A stretch of DNA of 60,844 bases from a virus: positions 1 through 60,844 of IMG/VR virus record IMGVR_UViG_3300025687_006674; one strand, given 5' to 3'. Positions 8,797-58,417 of the stretch are shown here, in pieces. Each line of letters begins with the position of its first letter. Within the stretch, counting starts at the first letter, position 1. The position numbers and the translations under genes were made by a program. A model generated the notes under the pieces. The model was not told the origin of the DNA. It saw nothing but the letters and a program-made list of their open reading frames with translations, and did no database searches.

Positions 8797-9104
8797 TGTT
8801 TACACGTTATATAGTAGAAGAAGACGATGAAAAAATTGTTTGGATGGATTGGAATTGGAACAAACATCGAGACAATGACTTACCAGCAATAGTGTGGAAA
8901 GATGGTACACTATCTTGGTATAAAAGAGGAGTTAAACATAGAGATAATGGACAACCTGCCGTTATTTTTCCTGACGGACATAAAGAATGGTGGGTTAATG
9001 GAAAATTACATAGAGAAGACGGACCAGCAATAATCAGAGCTGAAGGTTATGTCTTCTATTTTAAAGATGGTATAGAATATGATAACGATAGGTTTCAGCA
9101 GTAA
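8796..9104 (+). CDS. MORN-like repeat protein
   Basis: 102 residues built of three to four copies of a ~22-residue unit: H-R-D-N-x-x-P-A-x-x-x-x-D-G-x-x-x-W-x-x-x-G. Such repeats form beta-sheet ladders resembling MORN or toxin_YwqK-type units and occur in many phage and bacterial proteins without enzymatic activity. It starts at a TAATG junction with the HAD gene and overlaps the next glycosyltransferase by 26 bp. A binding or scaffold role is inferred. Confidence 0.7.
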   Translation: MFTRYIVEEDDEKIVWMDWNWNKHRDNDLPAIVWKDGTLSWYKRGVKHRDNGQPAVIFPDGHKEWWVNGKLHREDGPAIIRAEGYVFYFKDGIEYDNDRFQQ

Positions 9105-10722
9105 AAAAGTAGATGAAAATTTTGTAAACTACATTAAAAAAAGTGTGGGAATACCTAACGCTGAAATTATACCTATTGAAAATCCGGGTAAGTATTCCCT
9201 TACTGAGGCATATAATATTATATTAGAAAAATCTACAAATGATATTGTGGTGTTTTGTCACGATGACATTTATTTTGAAAAAAATAATTGGGGTAACAAA
9301 GTATTAAAACATTTTAAAAGAAATCCTGAATATGGTATTTTAGGTGTTGCGGGTAGTACAAAACTACCAAAATCTGGTATGTGGTGGGAAGATAAAACTC
9401 GAATGAGAGGAATTGTAAATCACGAACATGAAGGTAAGAAATGGGAATCAAAATATTCAAAAAACTTAGGTAATAAAATTGACGATGTGGTGTTAGTTGA
9501 TGGTTTGTTTTTTGCAATAGATAAAAATAAGACTAAGACTAATTTTGATGAAAGTGTAAAAGGTTTCCATTTATATGATGTAGATTTTTGTTTTAGAAAT
9601 TATCTCGAAGATGTTAAAATAGGTGTTATCTATGATATTAGATTAACACACAAATCTATTGGTATGACAAATCAAGAATGGGAAAACAATAGAATAGAAT
9701 TTTCAGAAAAATATCAAGATAAATTACCCGTTAAAATATCACCTGATATAAACATTGATTCAAAAATAAAAGTTTTACTAAGCTCATTATTGTTTAAAAC
9801 ATATACTGGTTCTGAAATGTATGTTTTTGAACTAGCAAAGTCTCTTACAAAACTTAATTGTGATGTGACAGTAATGTCTGACATAGATGGTCCATTATCT
9901 CGACAAGCAAGACAATATGATATTAAAACAATACCGTTTAATGAACCACCTGGTTATAAAATGGGGGATGGAAAATGGGGTATGAACACACCTGAAGGTT
10001 TTCAACCATCACAACCAAATATGTTGTATAAAGTAAGTGAAGTTGATTTTGACATTGTTCACATTCAGCACAAACCTGTCACTGAAAGAATATTACAACT
10101 ATACCCTTCATTACCAAAAATCGCCACAATACATTCAGAAGTAATTGATTTAGAGGACCCGATAAATGATGAAACTATTTTAAAGTATATCACAATACGT
10201 CCTGAAATAAAAGAAAAAATTACAACGATAGATGGTATCTCAGAAGATAAAGTTGAGGTTGTATACAACCCGATTGATACTACAAAATTTAATACCACTA
10301 ACACTAAAGATGAGGGGTATATACTTTTTGTTGGTACTATAGATTATTTAAGAGAAAATACCATAAAAGACATTTCTAATTACGCAAAAGAAAACAAACG
10401 AGATTTATGGTTAGTTGGAGAAAATAAATCGAATTATTTAAGTGATTTATTAAAAGAACCACATGTCAAACATTTTGAACCAACAACCGATGTACAGAAG
10501 TATGTTAAGAATTGTCATGAAACTGCAGGTATATTATTAGGTAGGACCACTATTGAAAGTTGGTTGTGTGGTAAGAATTCGTGGATATATGATGTTGATA
10601 GTTCTGGTATTATTTTGAATAAAGAGTTAACAACACCACCTGATGATGTGTCTAAATTTAGTTCCATAGAAGTTGCTAAAAAAATAAAAGAAAACTATAT
10701 AGAAATTATTAAACAATGGTAA
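9079..10722 (+). CDS. Two-domain glycosyltransferase, GT2-like plus GT4-like fusion
   Basis: 547 residues. Residues 1-215 form a GT-A-like domain with a C-H-D-D (DxD-type) metal site in V-V-F-C-H-D-D-I-Y. Residues ~225-547 form a GT-B domain that begins K-V-L-L-S-S-L-L-F-K-T-Y-T-G-S-E-M-Y and has the donor-binding region R-T-T-I-E-S-W-L-C-G-K near the end. Fusion of two transferases suggests that two successive sugars are added to the same acceptor. Sugars are unknown. It overlaps the upstream and downstream genes, consistent with a coupled operon. Confidence 0.8.
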   Translation: MITIGFSSKKVDENFVNYIKKSVGIPNAEIIPIENPGKYSLTEAYNIILEKSTNDIVVFCHDDIYFEKNNWGNKVLKHFKRNPEYGILGVAGSTKLPKSGMWWEDKTRMRGIVNHEHEGKKWESKYSKNLGNKIDDVVLVDGLFFAIDKNKTKTNFDESVKGFHLYDVDFCFRNYLEDVKIGVIYDIRLTHKSIGMTNQEWENNRIEFSEKYQDKLPVKISPDINIDSKIKVLLSSLLFKTYTGSEMYVFELAKSLTKLNCDVTVMSDIDGPLSRQARQYDIKTIPFNEPPGYKMGDGKWGMNTPEGFQPSQPNMLYKVSEVDFDIVHIQHKPVTERILQLYPSLPKIATIHSEVIDLEDPINDETILKYITIRPEIKEKITTIDGISEDKVEVVYNPIDTTKFNTTNTKDEGYILFVGTIDYLRENTIKDISNYAKENKRDLWLVGENKSNYLSDLLKEPHVKHFEPTTDVQKYVKNCHETAGILLGRTTIESWLCGKNSWIYDVDSSGIILNKELTTPPDDVSKFSSIEVAKKIKENYIEIIKQW

Positions 10723-11429
10723 TCCTAACTACTACATATAATTGTGAAAATTTTGTTGAACGGTCTCTTTTGACAATAATGAGTCAATCATACGGAAATT
10801 TTAAATGTTACATTACTGACGATTTATCTACAGATAATACGGTCAATGTAATTAAGAAAACTATTAAAGGTGATGATAGATTTATTCTCATCGAGAATAA
10901 AGAAAAAATGTATCAACCAGGTAACTATGACCAAGTTATTAGAGATAATGAAGACATTTCAGATTATGAAATCTGTGTTGAAGTCGATGGTGATGATTGG
11001 TTACCCGATAGGTTTACGTTACAGAGAATACACGATTTTTATCAAAACAATGATGTTTGGTTAGCTAATGGTTGTTTTAAATATAATGATGGAAGACCTG
11101 GATTTGCCAAACCACCAATAAAATTTGAGAATGTTAGACAAGAAGTTTTTACTCTTTCTCACATTAGAACGTGGAAAGCATTTCTATGGAGAAAAATTTT
11201 ACAAGAAGATTTAAAAGATGAAAATGGTAAATATTGGTCCGTGGCAGGTGATTTAGCCTTTATGTACCCAATGTTTGAAATGTCAGGAAAAGAACATTAT
11301 GGATTCATGACAGATATTAATTATGTTTACAATGAATCAAACCCACTTAACGACCATAAAGTCAATATGTCAAAGGTACAACAAACAGTGGTAAAAATTA
11401 GAAATAAAAAACCTTATAACAAAATATAA
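10716..11429 (+). CDS. GT2-family glycosyltransferase
   Basis: 237 residues. The N-terminus has the standard GT2 fold (I-L-T-T-T-Y-N-C-E-N-F-V), the nucleotide-binding D-D-L-S-T-D-N-T, and a metal-binding D-G-D-D-W in the middle. It transfers a sugar from a nucleotide donor by inversion; donor and acceptor are unknown. It overlaps the two-domain transferase by 7 bp and is followed after 1 bp by the aminotransferase. Confidence 0.88.
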   Translation: MVILTTTYNCENFVERSLLTIMSQSYGNFKCYITDDLSTDNTVNVIKKTIKGDDRFILIENKEKMYQPGNYDQVIRDNEDISDYEICVEVDGDDWLPDRFTLQRIHDFYQNNDVWLANGCFKYNDGRPGFAKPPIKFENVRQEVFTLSHIRTWKAFLWRKILQEDLKDENGKYWSVAGDLAFMYPMFEMSGKEHYGFMTDINYVYNESNPLNDHKVNMSKVQQTVVKIRNKKPYNKI

Positions 11430-11430
11430 T

Positions 11431-12615
11431 ATGAAAGAAAAAATTAATTTATTCCAAGTTTTTATGTCACCAAATGCAAGTGACGAAGTAACTAAAGTTT
11501 TAAATAGTGGTTATATCGGACAAGGACCTAAAGTTGAGGAGTTTGAAAAAGATTTAAGAAAATTCTTCAATCATGATTACGTATCAACATTAAATTCAGG
11601 TACTTCAGGATTACATTTAGCACTACACTTATTAAAAAAACCAAGTAATAATACGAAAGTTTTTGATGGTCTTGCATCTACGACATCATATTGGCCAGGA
11701 CTAAAAGATGGTGATGAAGTATTAGCAACACCTATGACATGTACCGCATCTAATTGGCCAATCTTAGCTAATGGGCTAAAAATAAAATGGGTTGATATTG
11801 ACCCGACTACATTAAATATGGATTTGGATGATTTAGCAAGAAAAATAACACCAAAGACTAAAGTTATTATGTTAGTTCATTGGGGTGGATATCCTAACGA
11901 TTTAGACAAGATTAAGAAAATTCAACAGGACGCTTACTTGCGTTTTGGATTTAAACCGGCGGTTATTGAGGACGGAGCACATTCATTTGGTTCTGAATAT
12001 AAAAGTAAAAAAATAGGAGGTCATGGTAATTTAACCATGTTCTCATTACAAGCAATTAAACACATAACATCTATAGATGGTGGATTACTTTTGTCACCAC
12101 ATAAAGAATTACATCAAAGAGGTAAGTTATTAAGATGGTATGGTATTGACCGAGATAGTGACCGAAAAGATTTTAGATGTGAAGCCGATGTTGAAGAATG
12201 GGGTTTTAAATTCCACATGAATGATGTGTGTGCAACTGTAGGAATAGAAAATTTAAAACACTTTAAAGACATTGTTGGTAAACATCGTGAGAACGCTAAA
12301 TTTTATGATGAACATTTGTCTGATGTTAAAGGCCTCACATTATTAAAAAGAGAAAAAGGTTTTGATTCAGCTTTTTGGATTTATTCTATGTTAGTCGATG
12401 ATAGAGACGGTTTTTATAAATGGATGGATGAATGTGGTATTGCAGTTTCACAAGTTCATGAAAGAAATGATAAACACACTTGTGTACAAGAGTTTAGAAC
12501 AGCATTACCGTCATTAGATAAAACAATAGGAAAAATTGTTTCTATACCCGTTGGTTGGTGGGTAACAGAAGAACAAAGACAATATATTGTTGATTGTATA
12601 AAAAAAGGTTGGTAA
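11431..12615 (+). CDS. DegT/DnrJ/EryC1/StrS-family PLP aminotransferase
   Basis: 394 residues, typical for sugar aminotransferases. The PLP-binding lysine is Lys210 in S-L-Q-A-I-K-H-I-T-S-I-D-G-G. The preceding E-D-G-A-H-S-F-G supplies the cofactor-stacking region. These enzymes aminate keto-sugars on nucleotide carriers, for example 4-keto-6-deoxyhexoses, to make 4-amino sugars. GDP-4-keto-6-deoxymannose from the Gmd at 18724 is a plausible substrate, which would give a perosamine-like sugar. That is inference. An acetyltransferase domain follows immediately, as expected for an N-acetylated amino sugar. Confidence 0.9.
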   Translation: MKEKINLFQVFMSPNASDEVTKVLNSGYIGQGPKVEEFEKDLRKFFNHDYVSTLNSGTSGLHLALHLLKKPSNNTKVFDGLASTTSYWPGLKDGDEVLATPMTCTASNWPILANGLKIKWVDIDPTTLNMDLDDLARKITPKTKVIMLVHWGGYPNDLDKIKKIQQDAYLRFGFKPAVIEDGAHSFGSEYKSKKIGGHGNLTMFSLQAIKHITSIDGGLLLSPHKELHQRGKLLRWYGIDRDSDRKDFRCEADVEEWGFKFHMNDVCATVGIENLKHFKDIVGKHRENAKFYDEHLSDVKGLTLLKREKGFDSAFWIYSMLVDDRDGFYKWMDECGIAVSQVHERNDKHTCVQEFRTALPSLDKTIGKIVSIPVGWWVTEEQRQYIVDCIKKGW

Positions 12616-13808
12616 TGATTTCATTAAGAAAAATAGAATATAAAGATTTAGAATTTGTATCGGAGGTTAGAAATGAATGTTCTTTTGAATTTTTACATAA
12701 TTCAAGAATATTTACTATTTCAGAAACTATCGAGTGGTTTAAAAATACTAACCCGTATTGGTTTATAATAGAAATTGATAATCATAAGATTGGTTATTTT
12801 AGAACATCTAATTATAAACCTGAAGAAAATTCTATTTACATTGGATGTGACATACACAAAGAATTTAGAGGTAGAGGATATGGTTATGAATCGTATTTAA
12901 CCTTTATTGATTTTTTATATAAAGAAAAAAATATAAACACTATTAATTTAGAAGTTTTATCTACAAACATTGTGGCTAAAAAATTATATCAAAAATTGGG
13001 GTTCAAAAATTTTGAAGAAAAGGATACCATTATTGAAAAAAATGGAAGTTCAGTTAAATCTGAATTTTGGTCTCTAAAGAAATCTAAAGTTTGTTATATT
13101 ATAAATTTTTATTTTGGAAAGAGGAGAAACCGAGTAACACCAATTTACAATGAAGATAAGTTATGTTTTCTTAAAAAACATATAGAATTATTAAACAAAC
13201 TTAAGCACAATATAGATAAAGTAATCTTTAATTTTAATGTAGACCCATCCGATTATTCTACTGTAAACAATGCATTAAAAATAACACCTAAAAAAATTAA
13301 TAAAACTAATATAGAAGTTAAGTTAAGACAAAACTTTGGTATGAGTTATGGTGCATGGTCAGACAATTTTATAGATAATAAAGACAAGTATGATTATTTT
13401 ATTTTTAATGAGGATGATTATTTTTTTATAATAGATTATTTTGACCAAATATTGATTAATAAATTTGAATCTAAAGAAAATGCAGGGTACTTGTGTGGGT
13501 TGGTTTTAGAATCTAAAATTCATCCTTTACATGCAGCACACGCGACTGGTATTTCATCAAATAAAGTCTTATCTGAAGTTGTTAAAAAGTTTGGTGAATT
13601 ACCTCATGATAAAAGTAATAATTATGCTTTAGTAGAAACAAATTCACAGGTTAGACAAACAAATTCTATGGTTGGGATGGGTTATATGTTATATGATTTA
13701 GGTGATGAATATAGAATAAATTTTGACGGTTTGGGAAGAATTAAAAGCTACTACACTGAAAATAATAAACTAATATTAGAACCCTGGATTAATGTCTATC
13801 AACCCTAA
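12615..13808 (+). CDS. GNAT acetyltransferase fused to a glycosyltransferase-like domain
   Basis: 397 residues from the ATG of a TAATG junction with the aminotransferase; an upstream in-frame ATG at 12594 is less likely. Residues 1-155 are a GNAT N-acetyltransferase with the acetyl-CoA loop E-F-R-G-R-G-Y-G and the following K-L-Y-Q-K-L-G-F-K-N-F motif, as in enzymes that acetylate amino sugars. Residues ~160-397 form a second domain with F-N-E-D-D-Y (DxD-like) that resembles a GT-A transferase but is not firmly assigned. The order aminotransferase, acetyltransferase, transferase suggests that an amino sugar is made, acetylated and attached. Confidence 0.75.
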   Translation: MISLRKIEYKDLEFVSEVRNECSFEFLHNSRIFTISETIEWFKNTNPYWFIIEIDNHKIGYFRTSNYKPEENSIYIGCDIHKEFRGRGYGYESYLTFIDFLYKEKNINTINLEVLSTNIVAKKLYQKLGFKNFEEKDTIIEKNGSSVKSEFWSLKKSKVCYIINFYFGKRRNRVTPIYNEDKLCFLKKHIELLNKLKHNIDKVIFNFNVDPSDYSTVNNALKITPKKINKTNIEVKLRQNFGMSYGAWSDNFIDNKDKYDYFIFNEDDYFFIIDYFDQILINKFESKENAGYLCGLVLESKIHPLHAAHATGISSNKVLSEVVKKFGELPHDKSNNYALVETNSQVRQTNSMVGMGYMLYDLGDEYRINFDGLGRIKSYYTENNKLILEPWINVYQP

Positions 13809-14505
13809 AGTATCAATATCTATTGCAACATATGAAGCCGATGGTAAAGGACTTTTTTTTATTAAAAAAAATGTTGAGTCTTTTTTATCACAAACATATG
13901 AGAATTTAGAATTAGTAATTTCAGACCATTCTATAAATTATGACATTAAAAATTATATTGATATACTAAATAATGATAAAATTATTTATGTAAGAAATGA
14001 AAAAGATAGGGGACTCCAAGTAGAAAATATAAATAACGCCATTTTAAATTGTTCAGGTGATTATGTTAAACTAATAAATCATGATGATTATATGGAATCA
14101 CAGAAAACTATTGAATTAATGGTTGATTTATTAGACGATGAACATAAATGGGTGATATCGAGTTGTAAACATCTTAATTATGAAACCAAAGAGATTTACA
14201 ATTTTCACAACCCAAGAATTGAGTCGGATGGTACCCATTTATTATCGGGTTTAAACTATGTAGGTTGCCCAAGTGTGGGTTTAATACCTAATGGTGTTTT
14301 ACTAGACACCAATGTAAAATATATGGGAGATTGTGAATTGTGGTTCCGTTTATTTAAAGATTATGGTATGCCGTCTTTTTTAGGGGGACATAATGTAGTT
14401 ATTGGTATGGGTAACCACACATTGACAAGAAAATTTGCCTCAAAACACTCAGAAATGTTAAGAAATGACATTATATATTGTAAGGAAAAATATAACATAA
14501 CATAA
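13792..14505 (+). CDS. GT2-family glycosyltransferase
   Basis: 237 residues. GT2 features are S-I-S-I-A-T-Y-E-A at the N-terminus, S-F-L-S-Q-T-Y-E-N-L-E-L-V-I-S-D, and the metal site N-H-D-D-Y near residue 100. The acceptor is unknown. It overlaps the GNAT fusion by 17 bp and is followed by the GT10-like gene with a shared base (TAATG). Confidence 0.88.
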   Translation: MSINPKVSISIATYEADGKGLFFIKKNVESFLSQTYENLELVISDHSINYDIKNYIDILNNDKIIYVRNEKDRGLQVENINNAILNCSGDYVKLINHDDYMESQKTIELMVDLLDDEHKWVISSCKHLNYETKEIYNFHNPRIESDGTHLLSGLNYVGCPSVGLIPNGVLLDTNVKYMGDCELWFRLFKDYGMPSFLGGHNVVIGMGNHTLTRKFASKHSEMLRNDIIYCKEKYNIT

Positions 14506-15296
14506 TGGAAAAACTAAAAGTATTTTCGAATTTTGGGTTTGGATTTGATATGGATGTTATTGAACCATGCGAATTGTATGTTGATAAGATACCAACAACA
14601 CCTAAAAATTCAGTTAGATTTTTATGGGTTATTGAACCTGATGAAGTTTCTAAAATGAAACAAAGAATTATAGATAATCACGATAAATATGATTTTATTT
14701 TAGCATACGATACCGATATTCTTTCTAAATGTAAAAATTCAATTCTATTTCCTTATGGAACGACATGGATTAAAGATTTTGATTTTACAAAGGAAAAAGA
14801 ATATTCAATAACCTCTATTGTTGGTGGTAAAAAAATGTGTTCTAATCATCCATTGAGACATTTACTAATTGATAAAGTGAATGATGTTACAAACATACCA
14901 GTTAATTTATATAATAGTGTAAATAAACCATATGTTGGGGTAAAAAACTTAAAGACAATCCAAAGTAAAACATATAAAAATGAAGTTTTTTACTCTCAAT
15001 TTCATATTGCAATAGAAAATACGACACAAGATAATTGGTTTACAGAAAAACTTATTGATTGCTTTCAAAGTAAGACAGTACCTATTTATATCGGTTGTCC
15101 AAACATAGGTGATTTTTTTGATGTTAATGGTATTATTCATGCAACAGATTTAGATGATTTAATAGAAAAATGTAAATCAATTAATGAAAACACCTATTCA
15201 AATATGTTAGAGTCAATAGAAAGAAACTACGAACTTAGTTTTAAGTATTCTGACCATATTAAATCATTAAGTGAGAAAATAACTGAACTGATATGA
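14505..15296 (+). CDS. GT10-like fucosyltransferase
   Basis: 263 residues. The C-terminal half has the GT10 (alpha-1,3/4-fucosyltransferase) signature: F-H-I-A-I-E-N, N-W-F-T-E-K-L-I-D-C-F, then V-P-I-Y-I-G-C-P-N-I. This region binds GDP-fucose in bacterial FucT enzymes. The protein is shorter than Helicobacter FucT and lacks its C-terminal heptad repeats. It lies next to a GT11 gene and near GDP-sugar synthesis genes, so it may use GDP-fucose or GDP-colitose made by the phage. Donor preference is not readable from sequence. Confidence 0.82.
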   Translation: MEKLKVFSNFGFGFDMDVIEPCELYVDKIPTTPKNSVRFLWVIEPDEVSKMKQRIIDNHDKYDFILAYDTDILSKCKNSILFPYGTTWIKDFDFTKEKEYSITSIVGGKKMCSNHPLRHLLIDKVNDVTNIPVNLYNSVNKPYVGVKNLKTIQSKTYKNEVFYSQFHIAIENTTQDNWFTEKLIDCFQSKTVPIYIGCPNIGDFFDVNGIIHATDLDDLIEKCKSINENTYSNMLESIERNYELSFKYSDHIKSLSEKITELI

Positions 15297-16075
15297 TGAA
15301 CACAGTGTCATGTAGAATTATGGGTGGATTAGGTAATTATCTTTTTCAGATTGCCACGGCATTTGCAATAAGTAAAAGAGATAATAAAAAAATGATTATC
15401 GATACATCTGATAATATGGTCCCACATAAACCTTATAAAAATTATATTAATAACATTTTTAGAAATATTGAATTCACTAACAATTATAAAGACTTTGTTA
15501 GAGTAAACCAAAATGGATTTAACTATTCTGACATACCTTTTGTAGAAGGAAATGTAAAACTTTTTGGATATTTTCAGAGTGAAAAATATTTTGAAAATTA
15601 TAGGGACGAAGTATTAGAATTATTTTCGATAGATGAGAATACTAACAACTACATTAAAGAAAAGTACTCCACTTTATTAGAAGGGGATACATGTTCAATA
15701 CACGTTAGACGAGGAGACTATGTAAGATTAAGTCAGTATCATTATTTACAAAATGTTGACTATTATAAATCAGCTTATGAATATATGGGAAAAGAAAAAA
15801 AGTATTTAATTTTTTCTGATGATATTGAGTGGTGTAAGGAAAATTTGAAATTTATTGAAAATTCATATTTTATTGAGGGTAATACTGATTATCAAGATTT
15901 GTATCTTATGTCTTTATGTAAAAATAATATAACATGTAATTCCACTTTTAGTTGGTGGGGTGCATGGTTAAATAAAAATAATAAAATTGTCACAATACCA
16001 TCAAGATGGTTTGGACCTCAAAATTCACATTTACCTACCGAAGATTTGTATTGTGAAGAATGGATAAAAATATAA
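15293..16075 (+). CDS. GT11-family alpha-1,2-fucosyltransferase (or colitosyltransferase)
   Basis: 260 residues with GT11 motifs: G-G-L-G-N-Y-L-F-Q near residues 11-19, H-V-R-R-G-D-Y (137-143), and C-N-S-T-F-S-W-W-G-A-W-L near the end. GT11 enzymes transfer L-fucose from GDP-fucose in alpha-1,2 linkage, and the family also includes colitosyltransferases. The adjacent ColD-like gene makes colitose a real alternative donor. It overlaps the GT10 gene by 4 bp and sits 4 bp before the SDR gene. Confidence 0.92.
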   Translation: MMNTVSCRIMGGLGNYLFQIATAFAISKRDNKKMIIDTSDNMVPHKPYKNYINNIFRNIEFTNNYKDFVRVNQNGFNYSDIPFVEGNVKLFGYFQSEKYFENYRDEVLELFSIDENTNNYIKEKYSTLLEGDTCSIHVRRGDYVRLSQYHYLQNVDYYKSAYEYMGKEKKYLIFSDDIEWCKENLKFIENSYFIEGNTDYQDLYLMSLCKNNITCNSTFSWWGAWLNKNNKIVTIPSRWFGPQNSHLPTEDLYCEEWIKI

Positions 16076-16079
16076 TTAA

Positions 16080-16991
16080 ATGAAAGATAAAATTTTAGTT
16101 ACAGGGGGGTCAGGTATGGTTGGAAATTCCCTCCAAAAATTTTTACCTGATGCGATTTACATATCATCAAAAGATTATGACTTAACAAATGAGTCAGATG
16201 TAATTTCTATGTTTGAAAAATACAAACCTAATATTGTGGTTCACTTAGCAGCAAAGGTTGGGGGTATTATAGATAACATTGAAAAACCATATGAGTATTT
16301 TGTTGAAAACATTAGAATGAACACATATATGGTTGAACACTCATATAAAAATGGTGTAGAACAATTTATAGGAATACTATCAACATGTATATATCCTGAT
16401 ACCGTAGAGAACTATCCAATGAAGGAAGAGGACTTGCATTTGGGTCCACCAACCATGACAAACTTTTCGTATGGTTATGCTAAAAGATGTTTGGCAGTAC
16501 AAATTGATGCATTAAATAAAGAGTACGGGACAAAGTATCAATATCTAACACCTTGTAATCTTTATGGTGAACATGATAAAACAGGACATAATAGTCACTT
16601 CGTTGCGGCATTATTAGAAAAAATATCAATAGCAGATAAAAACAAAAAAGACGAAATACAACTATTTGGTACTGGTACACCATTAAGACAATTTATGCAT
16701 TCGGACGATTTAGCTTGGGTTATACATGAATGTATTGATAAGAAAATTTATGAAAGTTTTAATGTTGCAACTGAAGAAAATTTATCAATAAAACAAATGG
16801 CTGAGATGTCATTAGAAACCCTAAATCTAACACACATTAAATTAAATTTTGACATCACAAAACCTGATGGTCAATATAGAAAAGACGTTTCTATTGATAA
16901 ATTAAAACATTTACTTACAGATTTCAAACCATTACCTTTTAAAGAAGGTATAAAAAGGGTTTATGATAAAATTAGTAAGCGACACGATTGA
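16080..16991 (+). CDS. GDP-L-fucose synthase / GDP-L-colitose synthase-like SDR
   Basis: 303 residues. The NADP-binding G-G-S-G-M-V-G is at 9-15. Ser101 and Cys103 in L-S-T-C-I-Y-P and the Tyr131-x3-Lys135 pair match the epimerase-reductase active site of GDP-fucose synthase (Fcl/WcaG). In the fucose pathway it converts GDP-4-keto-6-deoxymannose to GDP-L-fucose; the homologous ColC acts on the 3-deoxy intermediate to give GDP-L-colitose. With a ColD-like gene overlapping its 3' end by 29 bp, the colitose reaction is at least as likely as the fucose one. I leave the symbol blank for that reason. Confidence 0.9.
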   Translation: MKDKILVTGGSGMVGNSLQKFLPDAIYISSKDYDLTNESDVISMFEKYKPNIVVHLAAKVGGIIDNIEKPYEYFVENIRMNTYMVEHSYKNGVEQFIGILSTCIYPDTVENYPMKEEDLHLGPPTMTNFSYGYAKRCLAVQIDALNKEYGTKYQYLTPCNLYGEHDKTGHNSHFVAALLEKISIADKNKKDEIQLFGTGTPLRQFMHSDDLAWVIHECIDKKIYESFNVATEENLSIKQMAEMSLETLNLTHIKLNFDITKPDGQYRKDVSIDKLKHLLTDFKPLPFKEGIKRVYDKISKRHD

Positions 16992-18114
16992 CAAAAATGA
17001 TATAAATCATTTAGTAGAATGGTTATCTCAAGATGAGATTCCAAGATTAACTAAGGGTGAACTCACATTAGAATTAGAAAAAAAGTGGGCGGAAAAAATA
17101 GGAACAAAGTATTCTGTTTTTGTAAACTCAGGTTCATCATCAATTCTATTGACTTTAGCGGCACTATTAGAATCAGGAAAATTAAAAAACAAGAAAATAG
17201 TTGTTCCTGGTTTAAGTTGGGCTACTGATGTTAGTAGTCCTATGTTATTAGGTTATGAGACATTTTTATGTGATTGTAATTTAGATGATTTATCTTGTGA
17301 CCTAACACATTTAGAACAAATTTTTAAAGAACAAAATCCATCTGTTTTAATTTTAGTTTCACCTTTAGGTTTAGTCCCAAAAATGGATGAAGTAAAAGAA
17401 TTATGTGATAATTACGGTGTTCTTTTATTGGAAGATGTTTGTGAAAGTATGGGTTCAAAATATAAAGAACAATATCTTGGTTCTTTTGGTTTTGCATCTT
17501 TTTATTCAATGTACTTTGGTCATCACCTATCAACTATTGAAGGTGGTTTTATTAATACAAATGATGAGGATTTCTACCACCTTTTATTAATGATGAGAAG
17601 TCACGGATGGGATAGAGATTTACCTAAAGAAGCACAAGAAAAAATTAGAGAAAAATACAAATCAAATAACTTCACATCTCTTTATAATTTTTACGTACCA
17701 GGAATGAATTTACGTTCCACCGATTTACAGGCATTTATTGGGTTAAGAGCAATCGAAAAGTTAGATAAGTACAGTCTTATTCGTAATAATAATTTTACCA
17801 AGTATAAATCACTATTAAGAAACAATGATTTACCACTAACAAGTAGAAAAGATGATTTTGTTTCAAGTTTTGCAATTCCTATAGTGAATAAAAATAGAGA
17901 TTTAATTGTTGAAGAATTATCTAAGAATGGTATTGAAGTACGACCTTTAATTGCTGGTAATATGGCAAATAAACCAATGTGGTTTTTAAAATATGGTAAG
18001 GTATCTCTTAGTAATTGTGAAATGATTGATGAGTATGGATTTTATGTACCGAACCATCAGGATTTAAAAAATGAAGACATTAAAAAGATAACCGATATTA
18101 TTAACAAATATTAG
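16963..18114 (+). CDS. ColD-like GDP-4-keto-6-deoxymannose 3-dehydratase
   Basis: 383 residues of the DegT aminotransferase fold. At the position of the PLP-anchoring lysine it has His187 in Y-F-G-H-H-L-S-T-I-E-G-G. Compare K-H-I-T-S-I-D-G-G in the paralogue at 11431. This F-G-H-H-[ML]-S-T-I-E-G-G signature is characteristic of ColD, which uses PLP and glutamate to remove the C3 hydroxyl of GDP-4-keto-6-deoxymannose. Length matches the family (about 388). RfbH-type 3-dehydrases also carry His but need a flavin/iron-sulfur partner, which is not seen here. Flanking SDR and Gmd genes complete a GDP-colitose route. Confidence 0.88.
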   Translation: MIKLVSDTIDKNDINHLVEWLSQDEIPRLTKGELTLELEKKWAEKIGTKYSVFVNSGSSSILLTLAALLESGKLKNKKIVVPGLSWATDVSSPMLLGYETFLCDCNLDDLSCDLTHLEQIFKEQNPSVLILVSPLGLVPKMDEVKELCDNYGVLLLEDVCESMGSKYKEQYLGSFGFASFYSMYFGHHLSTIEGGFINTNDEDFYHLLLMMRSHGWDRDLPKEAQEKIREKYKSNNFTSLYNFYVPGMNLRSTDLQAFIGLRAIEKLDKYSLIRNNNFTKYKSLLRNNDLPLTSRKDDFVSSFAIPIVNKNRDLIVEELSKNGIEVRPLIAGNMANKPMWFLKYGKVSLSNCEMIDEYGFYVPNHQDLKNEDIKKITDIINKY

Positions 18115-18118
18115 TAAA

Positions 18119-18727
18119 ATGAGTATTGGTTTATATAATGAAAAATTAAACATAGAATTCTATCACATACCAAAAAATGGTATGACTACAATGTTAGTGG
18201 AGTTTAAGTTTTCTTGGAAAGATTATAAGGAAATACCAAACGACAGAAAAATTATTGCGATTATTAGAGAACCTATTGACAGATTTATTTCTTCTTACAT
18301 ACACTTTATAAAACACTATAGAGATGGAAACACTGAACAAACATTTAGAAAAATATCGATGGATAGAAAGTATATAATCGATAAAAATTATAATAACTGC
18401 CAAGGTGTTGAAACATTTTTATCAGAGATTGAAGAAAATGGATTTTTTGATAATCATAATCTACCCCAAATTTCATATTTAGAGGGAACTAATTTACCGG
18501 GTCATATATCATCTAATAGAAGTATTAATAAAATAACAAATTTCATAAAGTTTGATAAGATAAGTGAAGATATATCTGAAGTTTTGAATGAAGATATAAC
18601 TTTACCTGTACGTAATAAAGGAAACGATTCAATACGTACACAAATAGAAAATTGTGTTGAGAAGTTTAGAACTCGTATCGAAAAATTATATGAAGAAGAT
18701 TACAAATTATATAATAAAATATCATGA
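18119..18727 (+). CDS. Sulfotransferase-family protein
   Basis: 202 residues. The N-terminus has H-I-P-K-N-G-M-T-T (residues 16-24), equivalent to the 5'-phosphosulfate loop, and R-E-P-I-D-R-F-I-S-S-Y (50-60), equivalent to the 3'-phosphate-binding motif of carbohydrate sulfotransferases. These enzymes move sulfate from PAPS to a sugar hydroxyl. It lies between ColD-like and Gmd genes, so the acceptor is probably the glycan built by this cluster. The protein is short, keeping the core but little else. PAPS would have to come from the host. Confidence 0.82.
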   Translation: MSIGLYNEKLNIEFYHIPKNGMTTMLVEFKFSWKDYKEIPNDRKIIAIIREPIDRFISSYIHFIKHYRDGNTEQTFRKISMDRKYIIDKNYNNCQGVETFLSEIEENGFFDNHNLPQISYLEGTNLPGHISSNRSINKITNFIKFDKISEDISEVLNEDITLPVRNKGNDSIRTQIENCVEKFRTRIEKLYEEDYKLYNKIS

Positions 18728-19695
18728 AAAAAGCATTAATTACAGGGATAAATGGCCAAGATGGTTCTTACCTTTCTGAATTTCTTATAGAAAAAGGATA
18801 TGAAGTATACGGAATTTTAAAAAGAAATTCAGTTGCCGAAAATCAAACATCTCGTTTAGATAATATTTTTGATAAAATAAAACTTTATTATGCTGATATG
18901 ACAGACTTGTCGTCTCTGATATCTGTCATACAAAAAGTAATGCCTGATGAGATTTATAATTTGGCTGCACAATCACATGTTCGTATTTCTTTTGACCAAC
19001 CTTTATACACCACACAAGTAACTGGTGTAGGTACACTTAACATGTTAGAGGCGGTTAGATTAATAAAACCCGATGCAAAAATATATCAAGCATCGTCATC
19101 AGAAATGTTTGGTAATTCAATCGATAATGATGGGTTTCAAAGAGAAACTACTCCAATGAATCCAGTATCACCTTACGGGTGTGCTAAGGTGTTCTCATAC
19201 AACATTTGTAAAAATTATCGTAATTCTTATGATATGTTTATATCGAATGGAATTTTATTTAATCATGAATCACCACGAAGAGGTACAAACTTTGTAACGA
19301 ATAAAGTAGTAAAAGAAGCCGTTAAAATTAAACTTGGTTTATCTAATGAACTTAGATTAGGTAATTTAGACGCAACACGAGATTGGGGTCATGCCAAAGA
19401 CTACGTTGAAGCCATGTGGTTAATCTTACAACAAGATGAGTCTAATGATTACGTTTGTTCAACAGGAGTATCACACTCAGTTAGAGAACTATGTGAATAC
19501 ACATTTAAAAAACTAAATTTAAATTACGAAGATTATATCACACAAGATGAAAAATATTTACGACCTGAAGAGTTAGAAAATTTAAAAGGAGACTCCTCTA
19601 AATTAAGAAAAGATACTGGATGGTCTCCAAAATATACTTTTGAAAGTATGATTGATGAAATGATTGATTATTGGTTAAATTATTATAAATTATAA
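18724..19695 (+). CDS. gmd: GDP-mannose 4,6-dehydratase
   Basis: 323 residues. The N-terminal G-I-N-G-Q-D-G-S-Y-L is the NADP-binding loop typical of Gmd. The S-S-S-E-M-F-G segment, the P-Y-G-C-A-K catalytic Tyr-x3-Lys and the N-H-E-S-P-R-R-G substrate loop are all present. It converts GDP-mannose to GDP-4-keto-6-deoxymannose, the common precursor of GDP-fucose, GDP-colitose, GDP-perosamine and GDP-rhamnose. It is slightly shorter than E. coli Gmd (373). It overlaps the sulfotransferase gene by 4 bp and ends the main sugar operon, 26 bp before phoH. Confidence 0.95.
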   Translation: MKKALITGINGQDGSYLSEFLIEKGYEVYGILKRNSVAENQTSRLDNIFDKIKLYYADMTDLSSLISVIQKVMPDEIYNLAAQSHVRISFDQPLYTTQVTGVGTLNMLEAVRLIKPDAKIYQASSSEMFGNSIDNDGFQRETTPMNPVSPYGCAKVFSYNICKNYRNSYDMFISNGILFNHESPRRGTNFVTNKVVKEAVKIKLGLSNELRLGNLDATRDWGHAKDYVEAMWLILQQDESNDYVCSTGVSHSVRELCEYTFKKLNLNYEDYITQDEKYLRPEELENLKGDSSKLRKDTGWSPKYTFESMIDEMIDYWLNYYKL

Positions 19696-42251: not shown

Positions 42252-44021
42252 TCACTTACCGAATAACCATAAATACTTCTCATAGTCATTTCTATTAATA
42301 CTATTATTCATACCACGATAATTGTTCCCATTTGGCATCACAGGTAATGATGGGTTAAAATCTTGTGATTTATCTTTATAATCATTTGTAGATACCGACC
42401 AACTATCTAACATTGCTTTGGTCTGTTCTGTCACCTTTTCTAATTGACTAAATGAACTCTCACCAACATATATAGCCATAGCCATTGCCATAATAAGGTC
42501 ATCGTGTTGTCCTTTTTGGTGGTCAGGTCTACCATTAACATAAACAAAGGTCCCCAACTCATTAAATAACCTCATAGAACGTACTCTAAAGTCGTGTCTT
42601 AACGCCTCTTCAAAGGATGCGATAATCTGTACACGTTTAGAATTAAAGTTCAAACCAGGTATCTTCTCGTGTATCTTTGGGTTATACTTCCATTTGTCCG
42701 CAGCATTTAAACCATCAACATATAAGTTTTTATACCCCATCTCTTGTAGTTTACGTGATGTGGATACTCCCATACCTCCAGTAATATCAATTACAATAAA
42801 TGCCGAATACATCGTAGCCCACTTAAATGCCACCTCAGCAGCAACATCTGGTGGTATCTTTCCAATGTATTCCAATACCTGTTCTCTTTCATCAAAGTCT
42901 ATAATAATAAATGTAGTGAAGTCTTCACTATCACCACGAGAAACGTCAATACCCATAATATATTTGTGACCCTCTATAGGTTCTTTCCACTGCCATATAG
43001 CACCACCCATAAATTTATTTTCTGGTTCACATATATCATTATTCTTCATACGGTCCATAGTATCCTGAGGTATAACATTATCACCTGAACCCAAGAAGTT
43101 ACACTCCAATTCCTGAGCAATTTTTCGTCTGTCAAATTTTAATTTTTTTGACATCTTTTCAAACCAAGTAGAATATGGTTTGTAACCCTCTTCAAATCTT
43201 TTACTTATTTCGTTAAAGTCCCTTTTCATAGGGTCAATATGTGAATAGTCTAAGATAATTTCATCATCATTATATTCTTCACGATTTAACATATAATGAA
43301 CAATGTCTTTAACATTAATAAGTTTTAAATCATCAGCATAACGAGGGTCACGGTACCAATACATTTCAGTAATTTTGAAATCGTTCATACCCTTCATGGC
43401 TTGATTATAAATTGAATAATAGATTGGGTCGAATCCGTTAGGGGTAGAAATTACAATTACTTTACCACCCGTAGAAAGAGATGCCATACAGGCAGACCAG
43501 AAGTCGTTATCGGCCTCAATAAACGCAGCCTCGTCAAATATTAGAATAGTTGGAGTATAACCACGAAGTGCATCCTTCGATGTTGCCACGGCTTTTACCT
43601 CACACCCATTAGATAATTTAAAATGTCTTTGTGAATTCTTTTCAACTGAAAAATTAATACCAAACCATGAGGGCCATTGGTCAACAAAAGAACGAATCTT
43701 ATTTGCCATTTCTTGAGATGTGTCAAGTTTGTTGGCAATAATAAGAATCTTTTCTGGTTTTGTTTTAGGAGCGGTTACTAATCGTTTTGAAACCCAGGCT
43801 GAGGTAACTGTAGATACACCTGCCTGACGATACTTTAAGGCAATGTTTTCCTCATGTGTATCATAATCATTAATAAGACTAACTTGGTCGGGGAATAGTT
43901 CTAATGGAACGTATTTGGACTGAGTGTTATCGTAGGTCTGTAGATAGGTCTTTAAAGCGTATGGGGTATCTTTTACGCAACGTGCATATTCGAGTATTGC
44001 CTGTTCTCTTGATAAACCCAT
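42252..44021 (-). CDS. terL: Terminase large subunit, gp17-like
   Basis: 589 residues. The ATPase has a deviant Walker A, Y-R-Q-A-G-V-S-T (64-71), without the usual lysine before Ser/Thr, and a Walker B I-L-I-F-D-E-A (D163, E164). The RNase H-like nuclease has Asp359 in M-G-I-D-V-S-R-G-D, a second acidic site in V-I-D-I-T-G-G-M-G, and H-D-D-L-I-M-A-M-A near residue 530. It packages DNA into proheads and cuts the concatemer. Size is close to T4 gp17 (610). It sits 19 bp from the upstream 44041 gene, in an operon with portal. Confidence 0.95.
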   Translation of the reverse strand: MGLSREQAILEYARCVKDTPYALKTYLQTYDNTQSKYVPLELFPDQVSLINDYDTHEENIALKYRQAGVSTVTSAWVSKRLVTAPKTKPEKILIIANKLDTSQEMANKIRSFVDQWPSWFGINFSVEKNSQRHFKLSNGCEVKAVATSKDALRGYTPTILIFDEAAFIEADNDFWSACMASLSTGGKVIVISTPNGFDPIYYSIYNQAMKGMNDFKITEMYWYRDPRYADDLKLINVKDIVHYMLNREEYNDDEIILDYSHIDPMKRDFNEISKRFEEGYKPYSTWFEKMSKKLKFDRRKIAQELECNFLGSGDNVIPQDTMDRMKNNDICEPENKFMGGAIWQWKEPIEGHKYIMGIDVSRGDSEDFTTFIIIDFDEREQVLEYIGKIPPDVAAEVAFKWATMYSAFIVIDITGGMGVSTSRKLQEMGYKNLYVDGLNAADKWKYNPKIHEKIPGLNFNSKRVQIIASFEEALRHDFRVRSMRLFNELGTFVYVNGRPDHQKGQHDDLIMAMAMAIYVGESSFSQLEKVTEQTKAMLDSWSVSTNDYKDKSQDFNPSLPVMPNGNNYRGMNNSINRNDYEKYLWLFGK

Positions 44022-49308: not shown

Positions 49309-49758
49309 TTAACCTTTTAACTTACTTATTTGGTCTCGTAGTTTAATAGCTTCTTCAAAGTTCTGTTCTTCAATCGCACTATTAAGTTTATTTTGTAACT
49401 CAACAATTTTGTCTTGATTTTCTTCTATCTTTTTAATTTGGTCTCTGAGTTCCGCAGCTCTTTCAAAGTTTTGTTCTTCAACGCAACGGTCAAGTTCTCT
49501 TTTTAGAGAATCAACTTCATTAGATGACGATTTTCTTTTTTGTGTGAAGTTTGGTTCCCCTCCGTATGTTCTTACAATACTGGTAACTGAAAACATTCCG
49601 TCTTCTGAAACAAAACTTTCTTTATGCCAATCACCATTTTCATCGGTACCCTTTTCAGAGTTTGTTTTTCCTTTTACGAAAAAGGGTTGATTAAACATTG
49701 AGTCCATGTCGTTGAACATGTTAAATAGGTCATTAAAATTTCTTCTTTTTCCAAACAT
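49309..49758 (-). CDS. Double UVR-motif protein, McsA-like partner candidate
   Basis: 149 residues. The N-terminal ~75 residues are Phe/Asn/Met-rich (F-N-D-L-F-N-M-F-N-D-M-D). Two UVR motifs follow: L-D-R-C-V-E-E-Q-N-F-E-R-A-A-E-L-R-D (about 84-113) and L-N-S-A-I-E-E-Q-N-F-E-E-A-I-K-L-R-D (about 119-148). UVR motifs occur in UvrB/UvrC, in the ClpC middle region, and in the ClpC activator McsA. The next gene, read divergently, is a ClpC-like ATPase with its own UVR segment. No zinc-finger cysteines of McsA are present. An adaptor role is inferred. Confidence 0.75.
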   Translation of the reverse strand: MFGKRRNFNDLFNMFNDMDSMFNQPFFVKGKTNSEKGTDENGDWHKESFVSEDGMFSVTSIVRTYGGEPNFTQKRKSSSNEVDSLKRELDRCVEEQNFERAAELRDQIKKIEENQDKIVELQNKLNSAIEEQNFEEAIKLRDQISKLKG

Positions 49759-49959: not shown

Positions 49960-51978
49960 ATGATTGAAGAAGTAGACCCAAATGAAAAAGGAGGACGTAA
50001 AGGAAGACCTGAAGTAACTACAACAGGAACTCCCGTACTTGATAATTTCTCCAGAGATTTAATTAAACTCGCAGAGCAGGGAAAATTAGACCCTGTTATT
50101 GGTCGAGACCGCGAAATTTCTCGCATTGCTCAGATTCTTTCACGTAGAAAGAAAAATAACCCAATCATCATTGGTGAACCTGGATGTGGTAAAACCGCAA
50201 TCGTTGAAGGTTTGGCTATGAAGATTTTTAATGGTGACTGTCCAACCAATCTATCAGATAAACGTATCGTATCTTTGGATATGACCTCTATTGTTGCTGG
50301 CACAAAGTATCGTGGACAGTTTGAAGAACGTCTAAAAGTGATTTTGGATGAGCTTCACGATAATCCTGATATCATCGTTTTTATTGATGAGATTCATACC
50401 ATTATAGGTGCAGGTAATTCATCGGGTTCGTTGGATGCATCAAACATCTTCAAACCCGCACTTGCTCGTGGTGAACTCCAATGTATCGGAGCGACCACAT
50501 TGGATGAGTATCGTGAGAACATCGAAAAGGATGGTGCATTGGAACGTAGATTCCAAAAGGTTATGGTAGACGGTGCAACACCTGAGGAAACCTTAGAGAT
50601 TCTTAAGAGGTTAAAACCATTCTACGAGAAACATCACAAAGTAAACTACACCGACGCTGCGTTAGATGCTTGTGTTACTTTAGCTGGTCGTTACATCACA
50701 GACCGTGAATTTCCCGATAAGGCGATTGACGTATTAGATGAAGTTGGAGCGAAAAGTCAAATTAATGTACAACTACCTGAAATTATCGAAGATTTGAAGG
50801 CTGAGGCTTCTCAAATCAAAGAAGACAAGATTAAGGTAGTTAAACAACAAAAGTATGAGGAGGCTGCTCAACTACGTGACCGTGAAAAGAAACTTCTAAA
50901 GAAACTCGAAGATGAAAAGAAGAAGTTTGAGGAAGAACAAAACACAAACCGTAGAGACGTTACTGAGGATATGGTGTACGAAGTGGTATCGACCATGACA
51001 AAAATTCCAGTATCCAAACTCAACACCGATGAAGTTGAGTCTCTATTAAACTTGGAAAATAGTCTTAATCAGTCGGTTATTGGTCAGAAAGAGGCTGTAA
51101 CAAAGATTTCAAAGGCAATCCGTAGAAATCGTGTGGGTATCAAAGACCCAAACCGTCCAATCGGCTCATTTATCTTCTTGGGTTCAACGGGTATCGGTAA
51201 AACACACTTAGCTAAACGTCTCGCAGAAGAAATCTTCGGAGATGAAGAAGCACTAATCCGTGTGGATATGTCTGAATACCAAGAAAAGTACTCAATGAGT
51301 AGATTGATTGGTTCCCCTCCAGGATATGTGGGTTACAACGAAGGTGGACAGCTAACAGAAGCAGTGAAAAACAAACCTTACTCAGTGGTATTGTTCGATG
51401 AGATTGAAAAGGCAAACAAAGACATCTTCTCACTCTTACTACAACTGTTAGACGATGGTCACCTTACCGATAGTTTTGGTAGAAAAATTAACTTCAGAAA
51501 CTGTTTGATTATCATGACATCAAACTTAGGAGTTAAGAAACTTCAAGACTTCGGAACAGGAATCGGATTTGACACCACAACAAAAATGTCAAAAGACGAA
51601 GAACTTAAAAAGGTATTGTTGGAGAAAGAACTTAAAAACTTCTTCACCCCTGAGTTCCTAAATCGTGTTGACGAAGTGGTAGTGTTTAATCCTCTTAAAG
51701 AACTACAAGTTCAACAAATTGTTGAAATCGAGGTAACTAAACTTTTAAAGAGAATTCAAAAAATTGGTTATGACATCACAATCACCAAAGGTGTTAAAGA
51801 TTTTATCTCCAAAGTTGGATTTGATGAAAAGTTTGGAGCACGTCCTATCAAACGAGCAATTCAAGAAAAACTTGAGGACCTCATCTCTGAAGAGATTCTT
51901 AAAAAGAATATAATAATGGGTAAGAAATACTCCCTTCAGATGAAAGGACAAGAAGAAATCATTGTTAAGGGGAAATAA
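49960..51978 (+). CDS. ClpC-like AAA+ unfoldase lacking the N-terminal Clp_N domain
   Basis: 672 residues. Two AAA+ modules: Walker A1 G-E-P-G-C-G-K-T (72-79) and Walker A2 G-S-T-G-I-G-K-T (408-415), with both Walker B sites. A UVR-like middle segment ([13 protein letters not shown]) lies near 290-305, as in ClpC, not the long ClpB middle domain. Ile-Gly-Phe at 535-537 matches the loop that docks on ClpP. The ~140-residue Clp_N substrate domain is replaced by a 25-residue charged leader. It is host-derived in appearance, with many CGT and ACC codons unlike nearby genes. It would unfold proteins for host ClpP. Confidence 0.93.
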
Positions 51979-52040: not shown

Positions 52041-53111
52041 ATGGATAAACTAACGAAAGACAATTTTATTAACCTTCTCTCAGTACCGTCAAAAACGTAC
52101 CAAGAAGAAATGATGGTAGAACACATCTGTTCAGTATTGGACACGATGCCAGGGGTAACTTATTACCGAGATGAGATGATGAACATTTACGCAAAGAAAG
52201 GTGAATTGTCTGAAGGGAATTATTTTCCAATGTTTGTTGCACACACCGATACCGTACACAACATTGTCGAAGACAAAATCGTTGTGAAAGAAACACAGTT
52301 GAGTAAACCAAAAACCTTCGGTATGACGTTCGATGGGACACAACATGAAGCGTTGATTGGACAAACCTCAACGGGACATCCAACAGGTATTGGTGGGGAT
52401 GATAAGTGTGGGGTCTTCATTTGTTTAGAACTTCTACGAGTACTCTCGAATGTTAAAGTAGGGTTTTTTGTATCTGAAGAGACTGGTTGCCATGGTTCTA
52501 GCAAGTGTGACCCCACCTTTCTTCACGATGTAGGTTACATCATTCAATATGATGCACCAGGGAATCAACTAATTACCGAGGTTTGCTCGGGAATTCGTTT
52601 GTTCGAAAAAGATGGTGACTTCATTACACGTACCAAGAAACTATTTACACAAACAATGGGTGTAGAACCACTTTTACAATCACATCCATACACAGATGTA
52701 TCACAACTCAAGAAAAAGATTGATGTGTCTTGTATTAACTTCTCATGTGGTTATTACAACATGCACACCACCAGTGAATTTATTGTGTTGGACGATGTGG
52801 ACCGAGCCATTAGTTTGGGATTATCAATGGTGAGTGAGTTTGGTTACGAAAAACAAGAGTACCAATACGAGGTACCTTCATACAAAAATTTCTCAGATTA
52901 CAGTAACTTGTTTAATACTGTAGATGATGAGGATGATTACGAAGATTTTGATGAAGAAGTGGTAATCGATAATGAATTTACAAAAGTTGTCGAAGACGTT
53001 ACAGGACTCTTGATTCAGGATAAGTTCTACGGTACCGAAGTGTATTTGGATGAGGATGATATATTCACCCTTTATGAACACCTACAGAAAAGGTACATTC
53101 AACAGTACTAA
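52041..53111 (+). CDS. M20-type metallopeptidase (PepT/carboxypeptidase-like)
   Basis: 356 residues. Di-zinc ligands are visible: His68 and Asp70 in V-A-H-T-D-T-V, the bridging Asp in G-G-D-D-K-C-G (118-124), Glu146/147 in S-E-E-T-G, Asp in Q-Y-D-A-P-G and His in Y-Y-N-M-H-T-T-S-E. These follow the M20/PepT pattern. The family cleaves short peptides. The central lid domain is shortened, and ~70 acidic residues (D-D-E-D-D-Y-E-D-F) follow the catalytic part. It has its own host-type promoter. It overlaps the convergent 53108 gene by 4 bp. Confidence 0.85.
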   Translation: MDKLTKDNFINLLSVPSKTYQEEMMVEHICSVLDTMPGVTYYRDEMMNIYAKKGELSEGNYFPMFVAHTDTVHNIVEDKIVVKETQLSKPKTFGMTFDGTQHEALIGQTSTGHPTGIGGDDKCGVFICLELLRVLSNVKVGFFVSEETGCHGSSKCDPTFLHDVGYIIQYDAPGNQLITEVCSGIRLFEKDGDFITRTKKLFTQTMGVEPLLQSHPYTDVSQLKKKIDVSCINFSCGYYNMHTTSEFIVLDDVDRAISLGLSMVSEFGYEKQEYQYEVPSYKNFSDYSNLFNTVDDEDDYEDFDEEVVIDNEFTKVVEDVTGLLIQDKFYGTEVYLDEDDIFTLYEHLQKRYIQQY

Positions 53112-55440: not shown

Positions 55441-55471
55441 TTGTCAGAATAAAAAAATCTATTTATATTTG
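55441..55471 (+). promoter_or_regulatory. Bacteroidota-type promoter of tmRNA
   Basis: TTG at 55441-55443, 20-bp spacer, TATATTTG at 55464-55471, 20 nt before the mature tmRNA 5' end. Five-prime trimming by RNase P is expected. Confidence 0.9.
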
Positions 55472-55491: not shown

Positions 55492-55885
55492 GGGGGTGAC
55501 CGGTATTGATTGGCAGGGTTAGTCATACGGGGCATGCAGTGAGAGGTTTCCTATCACTTTAATCTATGGAGGCAATTTTTAGGTGGCAACACTTTCGCAA
55601 AACTTCAGGCTGTAGGTCTTCTACGCACTGAAGAAGTAACTGTAGCGTAAGACGCAACAGTGAATCGGGTCGGTGGACATATAACCTATGAACAGAAGTC
55701 TGTATATGGGAGTCACAGGTCAGAGCTCTCTTAAATAACTCTGAGACCAGGTTGTTTATTGGTTTGTTTCCCACACACATCAAACCATTTATTTCGGAAT
55801 GTTGAGAATCAACATTGACCTAAGCATGTAGTCCTTTATGGGTAGACTGAGCAAGACGCGGGTTCGATTCCCGCCACCTCCACCA
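55492..55885 (+). ncRNA. ssrA: Transfer-messenger RNA (tmRNA)
   Basis: 394 nt. The 7-bp acceptor stem pairs 55492-55498 with 55875-55881 and keeps G3.U at the third pair, the alanine identity element. A discriminator and encoded CCA follow at 55882-55885. The T-arm GCGGG-TTCGATT-CCCGC and the upstream CTAAGCATGTAGT match conserved tmRNA sequence. The tag frame is read from GGC 55585 to TAA 55648-55650. The preceding A at -4 and G at -3 fit a resume site, so the tag would be 21 residues ending T-V-A. A hairpin CTTCAG...CTGAAG lies inside the tag, before the usual P5 helix that holds the stop. Confidence 0.93.
55585..55650 (+). other. Predicted tmRNA proteolysis tag reading frame (21 residues)
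   Basis: Begins G-N-T-F-A-K-L-Q and ends R-T-E-E-V-T-V-A followed by TAA. Bacteroidota host tags are usually about nine to eleven residues ending L-A-A. The resume codon is inferred from the upstream A(-4)G(-3), not proved. Confidence 0.65.
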
Positions 55886-55890
55886 TTACA

Positions 55891-55928
55891 TGCCGATTAA
55901 AGTTTGATATTTTAATCGGCATTTTTTT
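55891..55928 (+). terminator. tmRNA terminator
   Basis: Eleven-base stem TGCCGATTAAA/TTTAATCGGCA with 9-base loop and a run of seven T. The T run carries the -33 box of the next promoter. Confidence 0.93.
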
Positions 55929-58320: not shown

Positions 58321-58406
58321 GCCTCGGTGGTGGAATAGGTAGACACGCCGGACTTAAAATCCTGTGGACAGTAATGTCCGTGCCGGTTCGACCCCGGCCC
58401 GAGGTA
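58321..58406 (+). tRNA. tRNA-Leu, anticodon UAA
   Basis: 86 nt. Seven-pair acceptor (with one G.U at the first pair), anticodon TAA at 58355-58357 in a C-T-T-A-A-A-A loop, long variable arm GGACAGTAATGTCC, and T-arm GCCGG-TTCGACC-CCGGC. CCA is not encoded. It reads UUA, a very common Leu codon in this genome. Confidence 0.93.
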
Positions 58407-58417
58407 CTAATAAAAAA

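Follow-up and report, generated by a model that had tools for sequence, protein, structure and literature searches.

The window, meaning the whole 60.8-kb virus contig that was analysed, belongs to a T4-like phage, with genes for the portal, gp23 and the terminase present. It contains a one-piece tmRNA gene (ssrA), and a gene for a ClpC-like unfoldase lies upstream on the same strand. The features of this region are given below with coordinates, strand and basis.

49309-49758, minus strand: small double-UVR-motif protein (Pfam UVR 1.5e-22, two stretches; synteny).
49960-51978, plus strand: ClpC-like AAA+ unfoldase with no N-domain and with the ClpP loop IGF at residues 535-537 (Pfam; alignment with S. 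aureus ClpC).
52041-53111, plus strand: M42/PepT-like metallopeptidase, a conserved neighbour (PHROG 4191, E 6.8e-39; Pfam M42; synteny).
55441-55471, plus strand: Bacteroidota-type promoter, TTG (55441), 20 nt, TATATTTG (55464-55471) (sequence).
55492-55885, plus strand: tmRNA (ssrA), one-piece, CCA encoded (ARAGORN; Rfam RF00023).
55585-55650, plus strand: tag reading frame GNTFAKLQAVGLLRTEEVTVA and stop TAA (ARAGORN; RF00023; family consensus).
55603-55633, plus strand: hairpin within the tag-coding message, pairing CTTCAG with CTGAAG and GTAG with CTAC (sequence; synonymous-resampling tests).
55639-55661, plus strand: P5 helix, its loop containing the stop of the tag frame (sequence; covariance model).
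55820-55832, plus strand: CTAAGCATGTAGT segment, preceding the tRNA-like 3' part (sequence; intact).
55890-55922, plus strand: intrinsic terminator, a 14-bp stem followed by a T run.

ARAGORN and RF00023 independently gave identical boundaries for the tmRNA. The match to RF00023 scored 89.9 bits (E 1.3e-33, model positions 1-374), the gathering score being 47. The acceptor stem GGGGGTG/CACCTCC contains the pair G3.U70 of alanine identity, its 3' side with the encoded CCA reads CACCTCCACCA, and the T-arm is intact. An earlier note on this DNA had described a complete tmRNA with G3.U, CCA, T-arm and the CTAAGCATGTAGT segment, and all of these were found by ARAGORN, RF00023 and inspection of the sequence. 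Its claim of charging with alanine was supported in the sense that the RNA looks chargeable, judging from G3.U70 and CCA. The note had also read a long tag of 21 residues ending TVA, from GGC 55585 to TAA 55650, and had proposed a covariance model and ARAGORN as a check on the resume codon. Both methods placed it at GGC 55585, with the stop TAA at 55648-55650 (coding part 94-159 in ARAGORN), and returned the same frame. ARAGORN additionally found a tRNA-Leu (taa) downstream of the tmRNA, at 58321-58407 of the window.

Relatives were gathered from viral contigs by four routes, namely the neighbouring gene, ClpC, a tmRNA pattern and a tag pattern. A DNA profile search gave 200 near-full-length locus matches, some of them overlapping, corresponding to 138 distinct sequences. 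These tmRNAs, all from T4-like phage contigs, were 55-93% identical to that of the window (median 61%) and fell into 75 clusters at 90%. Tag length was 21-22 residues in every one of the 138. The family consensus was xK[LM]xx[VIL]GL[ILV]R...EVxVA with a G[NED] start in nearly all, conservation at the positions of the tag pattern being partly built in for loci found by that route alone; the ClpC- and neighbour-anchored loci, gathered without the tag pattern, had the same tags. The terminal alanine was invariant (138/138), and no sequence ended in LAA or MAA (0/138). Endings were TVA, AVA, SVA, VVA, YAA, NVA, VLA, VAA and VIA, with VA in most. The long tag is shared and conserved throughout the family. 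A tblastn search of the tag against 50,697 named phage records gave no match. Upstream of the tmRNA, a TAnnTTTG box was present in 113 of 136 distinct family stretches compared to 16.6 in shuffles, and TTG at promoter spacing was present in 107.

The promoter and the start of the tag suggest that the phage host is a Bacteroidota; the start G-[NE] of the phage family is also seen in many Bacteroidota host tags. A tmRNA scored over the cut-off in 189 of 198 Bacteroidota genomes. In 51 Bacteroidota tmRNA loci examined with ARAGORN the tags were of 9-10 residues, apart from one of 19 (ANNTPVYAMNSVPVYSLAA), and all 51 ended LAA or MAA. The earlier note had stated that host tags are shorter and end L-A-A; the first part stood, and the ending had to be widened to LAA or MAA. 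The phage tag pattern was found in 0 of 395 Bacteroidota genomes, a count for the exact pattern, which would miss variants. A captured host gene was rejected as an origin on these grounds, given the short [LM]AA tags of the hosts. Compared with the Bacteroidota one-piece ssrA of RF00023, the phage RNA agrees in fold, in the G3.U70 pair and CCA of its tRNA-like part, in the context of the resume codon and in a P5 that holds the stop codon, but its message has a conserved extra hairpin and encodes a tag of 21-22 residues that mostly ends VA.

The tag message appears to be under selection as a reading frame. Pairwise differences at codon positions 1, 2 and 3 were 0.376, 0.175 and 0.495, respectively. 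Frame 0 was open in 77 of 77 sequences, while stops occurred in frame +1 in 73 and in frame +2 in 71 of the 77, and frame 0 translations had a higher BLOSUM score than those of the other frames. pN was lowest in the last four tag codons (0.18 compared to 0.29-0.32 elsewhere). The nested hairpin that the earlier note had placed before P5 was also recovered, with the refinement that it falls within the tag-coding frame. CDS nt 16-54 were stabler than synonymous recodings (mean z -2.33, phage codon usage null). Against a GC-matched null drawn from the tag codon pool, the hairpin segment had a mean z of -1.62 across the family, with p <= 0.05 in 42% of 60 peptide representatives, and the signal over 30 nt peaked at nt 19-48; since the sequences share ancestry, the observations in the hairpin and peptide tests are not independent of one another. 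The loop centre was at CDS nt 34-36 in 59 of 60 loops found in the 60 peptide representatives. The pairing register differs between clades, and conservation of the window's exact pairing throughout the family was rejected (mean 5.2 of 10 pairs); what persists is a hairpin in the same place. Both layers, the peptide and the RNA hairpin, look selected.

One explanation for this double conservation is a bioactive or targeting peptide, which would dock truncated chains on a partner encoded by the phage or the host, while the hairpin times translation of the tag. It would account for the conserved mid-tag motif K[LM]xx[VIL]GL[ILV]R and for the conserved hairpin over the same codons. The tag had no likeness to any PDB chain, its motif was absent from the ORFs and proteins of the window, and constraint on the tag is strongest at its end, so that such a function is regarded as very unlikely.

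The earlier note had also pointed to a ClpC-like unfoldase of the phage, to which the unusual ending could redirect tagged proteins, or else divert them from host ClpXP. The unfoldase was located at 49960-51978 on the plus strand, and the note's interpretation is partly supported. The protein has two AAA+ modules, and its IGF aligns close to the position of the ClpP loop in ClpC from S. aureus. No Pfam match to Clp_N, the adaptor-binding N-terminal domain, was found, and the alignment begins at residue 154 of S. aureus ClpC. The ClpP-docking loop [VIML]GF and the pore motifs KYRG and GY[VI]G were each present in 122 of 122 aligned ClpC sequences. The two AAA+ modules, docking loop and pore motifs are common to ClpC/ClpA-class unfoldases; the absence of the N-domain and the linkage to a tmRNA distinguish the phage protein from these and from the ClpA, ClpX, ClpP and ClpS carried by jumbo phages (PMC7824862). 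Each of the 45 ClpC-anchored loci that extend 6 kb or more downstream has this tmRNA on the same strand, and the gap between the two genes was 1.1-6.5 kb over all loci. ClpC was missing from the fetched stretch in 25 tag-tmRNA loci, of which 15 were among 18 long-tag records that were re-searched and the other 10 were outside them. Seventeen of the 18 contained ClpC, the exception being a 7.6-kb fragment. ClpC and tmRNA occur together within a single phage lineage, and their joint presence therefore does not represent many independent events. A ClpC-linked tmRNA was sought in the huge uncultured phages LR745206, LR756502 and LR756508 and rejected, as ARAGORN found none within 12 kb of ClpC; in LR756508 a tmRNA was matched over its full length at another place in the record.

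The linkage bears on the possibility that the tag is protective. The phage tmRNA would then compete with that of the host, so that ribosomes are freed and tagged chains escape fast degradation by host ClpXP. The complete lack of [LM]AA endings in the phages, set beside the uniform host tags, is in favour of such a role. Constraint is highest at the C-terminal residues and the alanine never varies, which fits reading of the tag better than mere avoidance, and ClpC co-occurs with the tmRNA. Protection is considered unlikely.

Several neighbouring genes may belong to the same pathway. The metallopeptidase at 52041-53111 is a possible peptide recycler. The double-UVR protein, which adjoins ClpC in many relatives and matches NCBIfam McsA at 5.8e-11, below the cut-off, is a possible adaptor. 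No ClpP was found in the window. Phage ClpP was present in 8 of 25 records (G003, G006, G009, G010, G011, G012, G017 and G019) and was located roughly 42-48 kb from ClpC in G006, G010, G011 and G019. Six ClpP loci were translated, and an apparent S-H-D triad was seen in them. Phage SmpB was found in 1 of 25 large records; in L236 and L238 (near-identical), L225 and L264 it lies about 0.1-0.9 kb from the tmRNA on the opposite strand. With SmpB and ClpP at these frequencies, the module depends on the host. In another part of the window, 9079-19695, genes were found for a GDP-mannose dehydratase, an NAD-dependent epimerase, GT10 and GT11 fucosyltransferases, DegT aminotransferases and a sulfotransferase, which may allow the phage to synthesise a fucose-like sugar and attach it.

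The rarity of SmpB in these phages would suit a decoy RNA that titrates SmpB and lowers host trans-translation. There is a precedent in mycobacteriophage DS6A, which has a tRNA-like-only tmRNA, and DS6A-like RNA inhibits tmRNA (PMC4131195). A pure decoy would need neither the full message, the selected frame nor the P5 stop helix, all of which are kept here, and this explanation is considered extremely improbable.

Other tags were found in Bacteroidota or candidate Bacteroidota phages with no ClpC match (Calle_1, L579 and G423; two are incomplete contigs). The cultured Cellulophaga phage Calle_1 (L570) has a tmRNA at 42950-43311 of its record. Its tag in the covariance-model frame, GNNTNAVNAQIEANMEAVNAILNLEVAVGV, is roughly 30 residues long and ends VGV, which sets it apart from host tags; ARAGORN placed the start later in the same frame. 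A comparison of this tag with the family tags gave p = 0.02, a borderline value for homology. Here a long non-LAA tag occurs in a phage with no ClpC match, and ClpC is therefore not needed for such a tag. The tmRNA of L579 is homologous (nhmmer 1.7e-22) and encodes the tag GEEKSSFTFEDAMSFVGADYAVAA, and that of G423 encodes GEEQFALAA; ClpC was not matched in the 66 kb of the former or the 18 kb of the latter. Among viral tmRNA calls sampled more generally, 72 of 98 ended [LM]AA. Tags ending VAA or QVA occur outside the family in viral contigs and in phage G (AKLNITNNELQVA). A search with a mycobacteriophage tag gave no match.

Such endings raise the possibility of an ordinary variant tag, diverged but still read by host ClpXP or Lon, with the tmRNA supplementing rescue and ClpC an unrelated chaperone. 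The retained terminal alanine agrees with this, as does the reading of the E. coli tag by ClpXP, ClpAP and Lon (PMC8012679). Since that alanine is kept in all 138 sequences, host ClpX may recognise the tag, and endings in V-A or A-A could serve as signals for ClpX or Lon of the host. An internal 21-residue consensus at a median tmRNA identity of 61% exceeds what would be expected had an [LM]AA tag merely drifted under relaxed constraint, and we doubt that the tag is such a variant.

There is good support for a functional tmRNA whose C-terminal tag is conserved and specific to the phages; expression, charging and tagging by this RNA we infer. The explanation preferred here is a phage tag-and-destroy module, in which the tag is a C-degron read by phage ClpC together with ClpP. 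It is given an even chance of being correct, and the pairing of tag and reader is suggested by the linkage of their genes. A working tmRNA would be made during infection and served by host alanyl-tRNA synthetase and by SmpB, presumably that of the host and in a few relatives that of the phage. It would enter ribosomes stalled on broken mRNA, and translation would move to the tag message at GGC 55585, so that the 21-residue tag, plus the charged alanine, is added to the unfinished chain. The tag end EVxVA with its invariant alanine would act as a C-terminal degron, unlike the [LM]AA of the host. The N-domain-less ClpC encoded a few kb upstream would most likely recognise it and feed tagged chains into ClpP, either that of the host or, in some relatives, the phage's own, and the neighbouring metallopeptidase may finish the peptides.

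Parts of this arrangement are already known, namely phage tmRNAs, long tags and phage Clp genes. Phage tmRNAs have been reported in mycobacteriophages, phage G, Melnitz and other marine phages (PMC4131195, PMC9004378). These too are complete tmRNAs in phage genomes, and the phage G tag likewise ends VA, but the family of 21-22-residue tags and the linkage to ClpC are not described there. The long SsrA tag of Mesoplasma/Mycoplasma ends NYAFA and is read by Lon (PMC9382460). Both tags are long and diverged from the usual one, and each goes, in the phage by proposal, with a different AAA+ protease; theirs is cellular and matched to Lon, whereas the present one is phage-encoded with ClpC as the proposed reader. 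No description of the tag family or of its linkage to ClpC was found in a limited literature search.

A stricter form of the proposal is an orthogonal pathway, in which the tag is read only by phage ClpC with host or phage ClpP, separate from the host ClpXP route. This form is possible, but we would not call it probable. If true, the disposal of stalled products in the infected cell would be split from the ClpXP of the host. With a tag family outside the ALAA class and an unfoldase to go with it, the gain that a phage has from its own tmRNA becomes directly testable, and the tag with ClpC becomes a naturally occurring candidate pair of orthogonal degron and reader.
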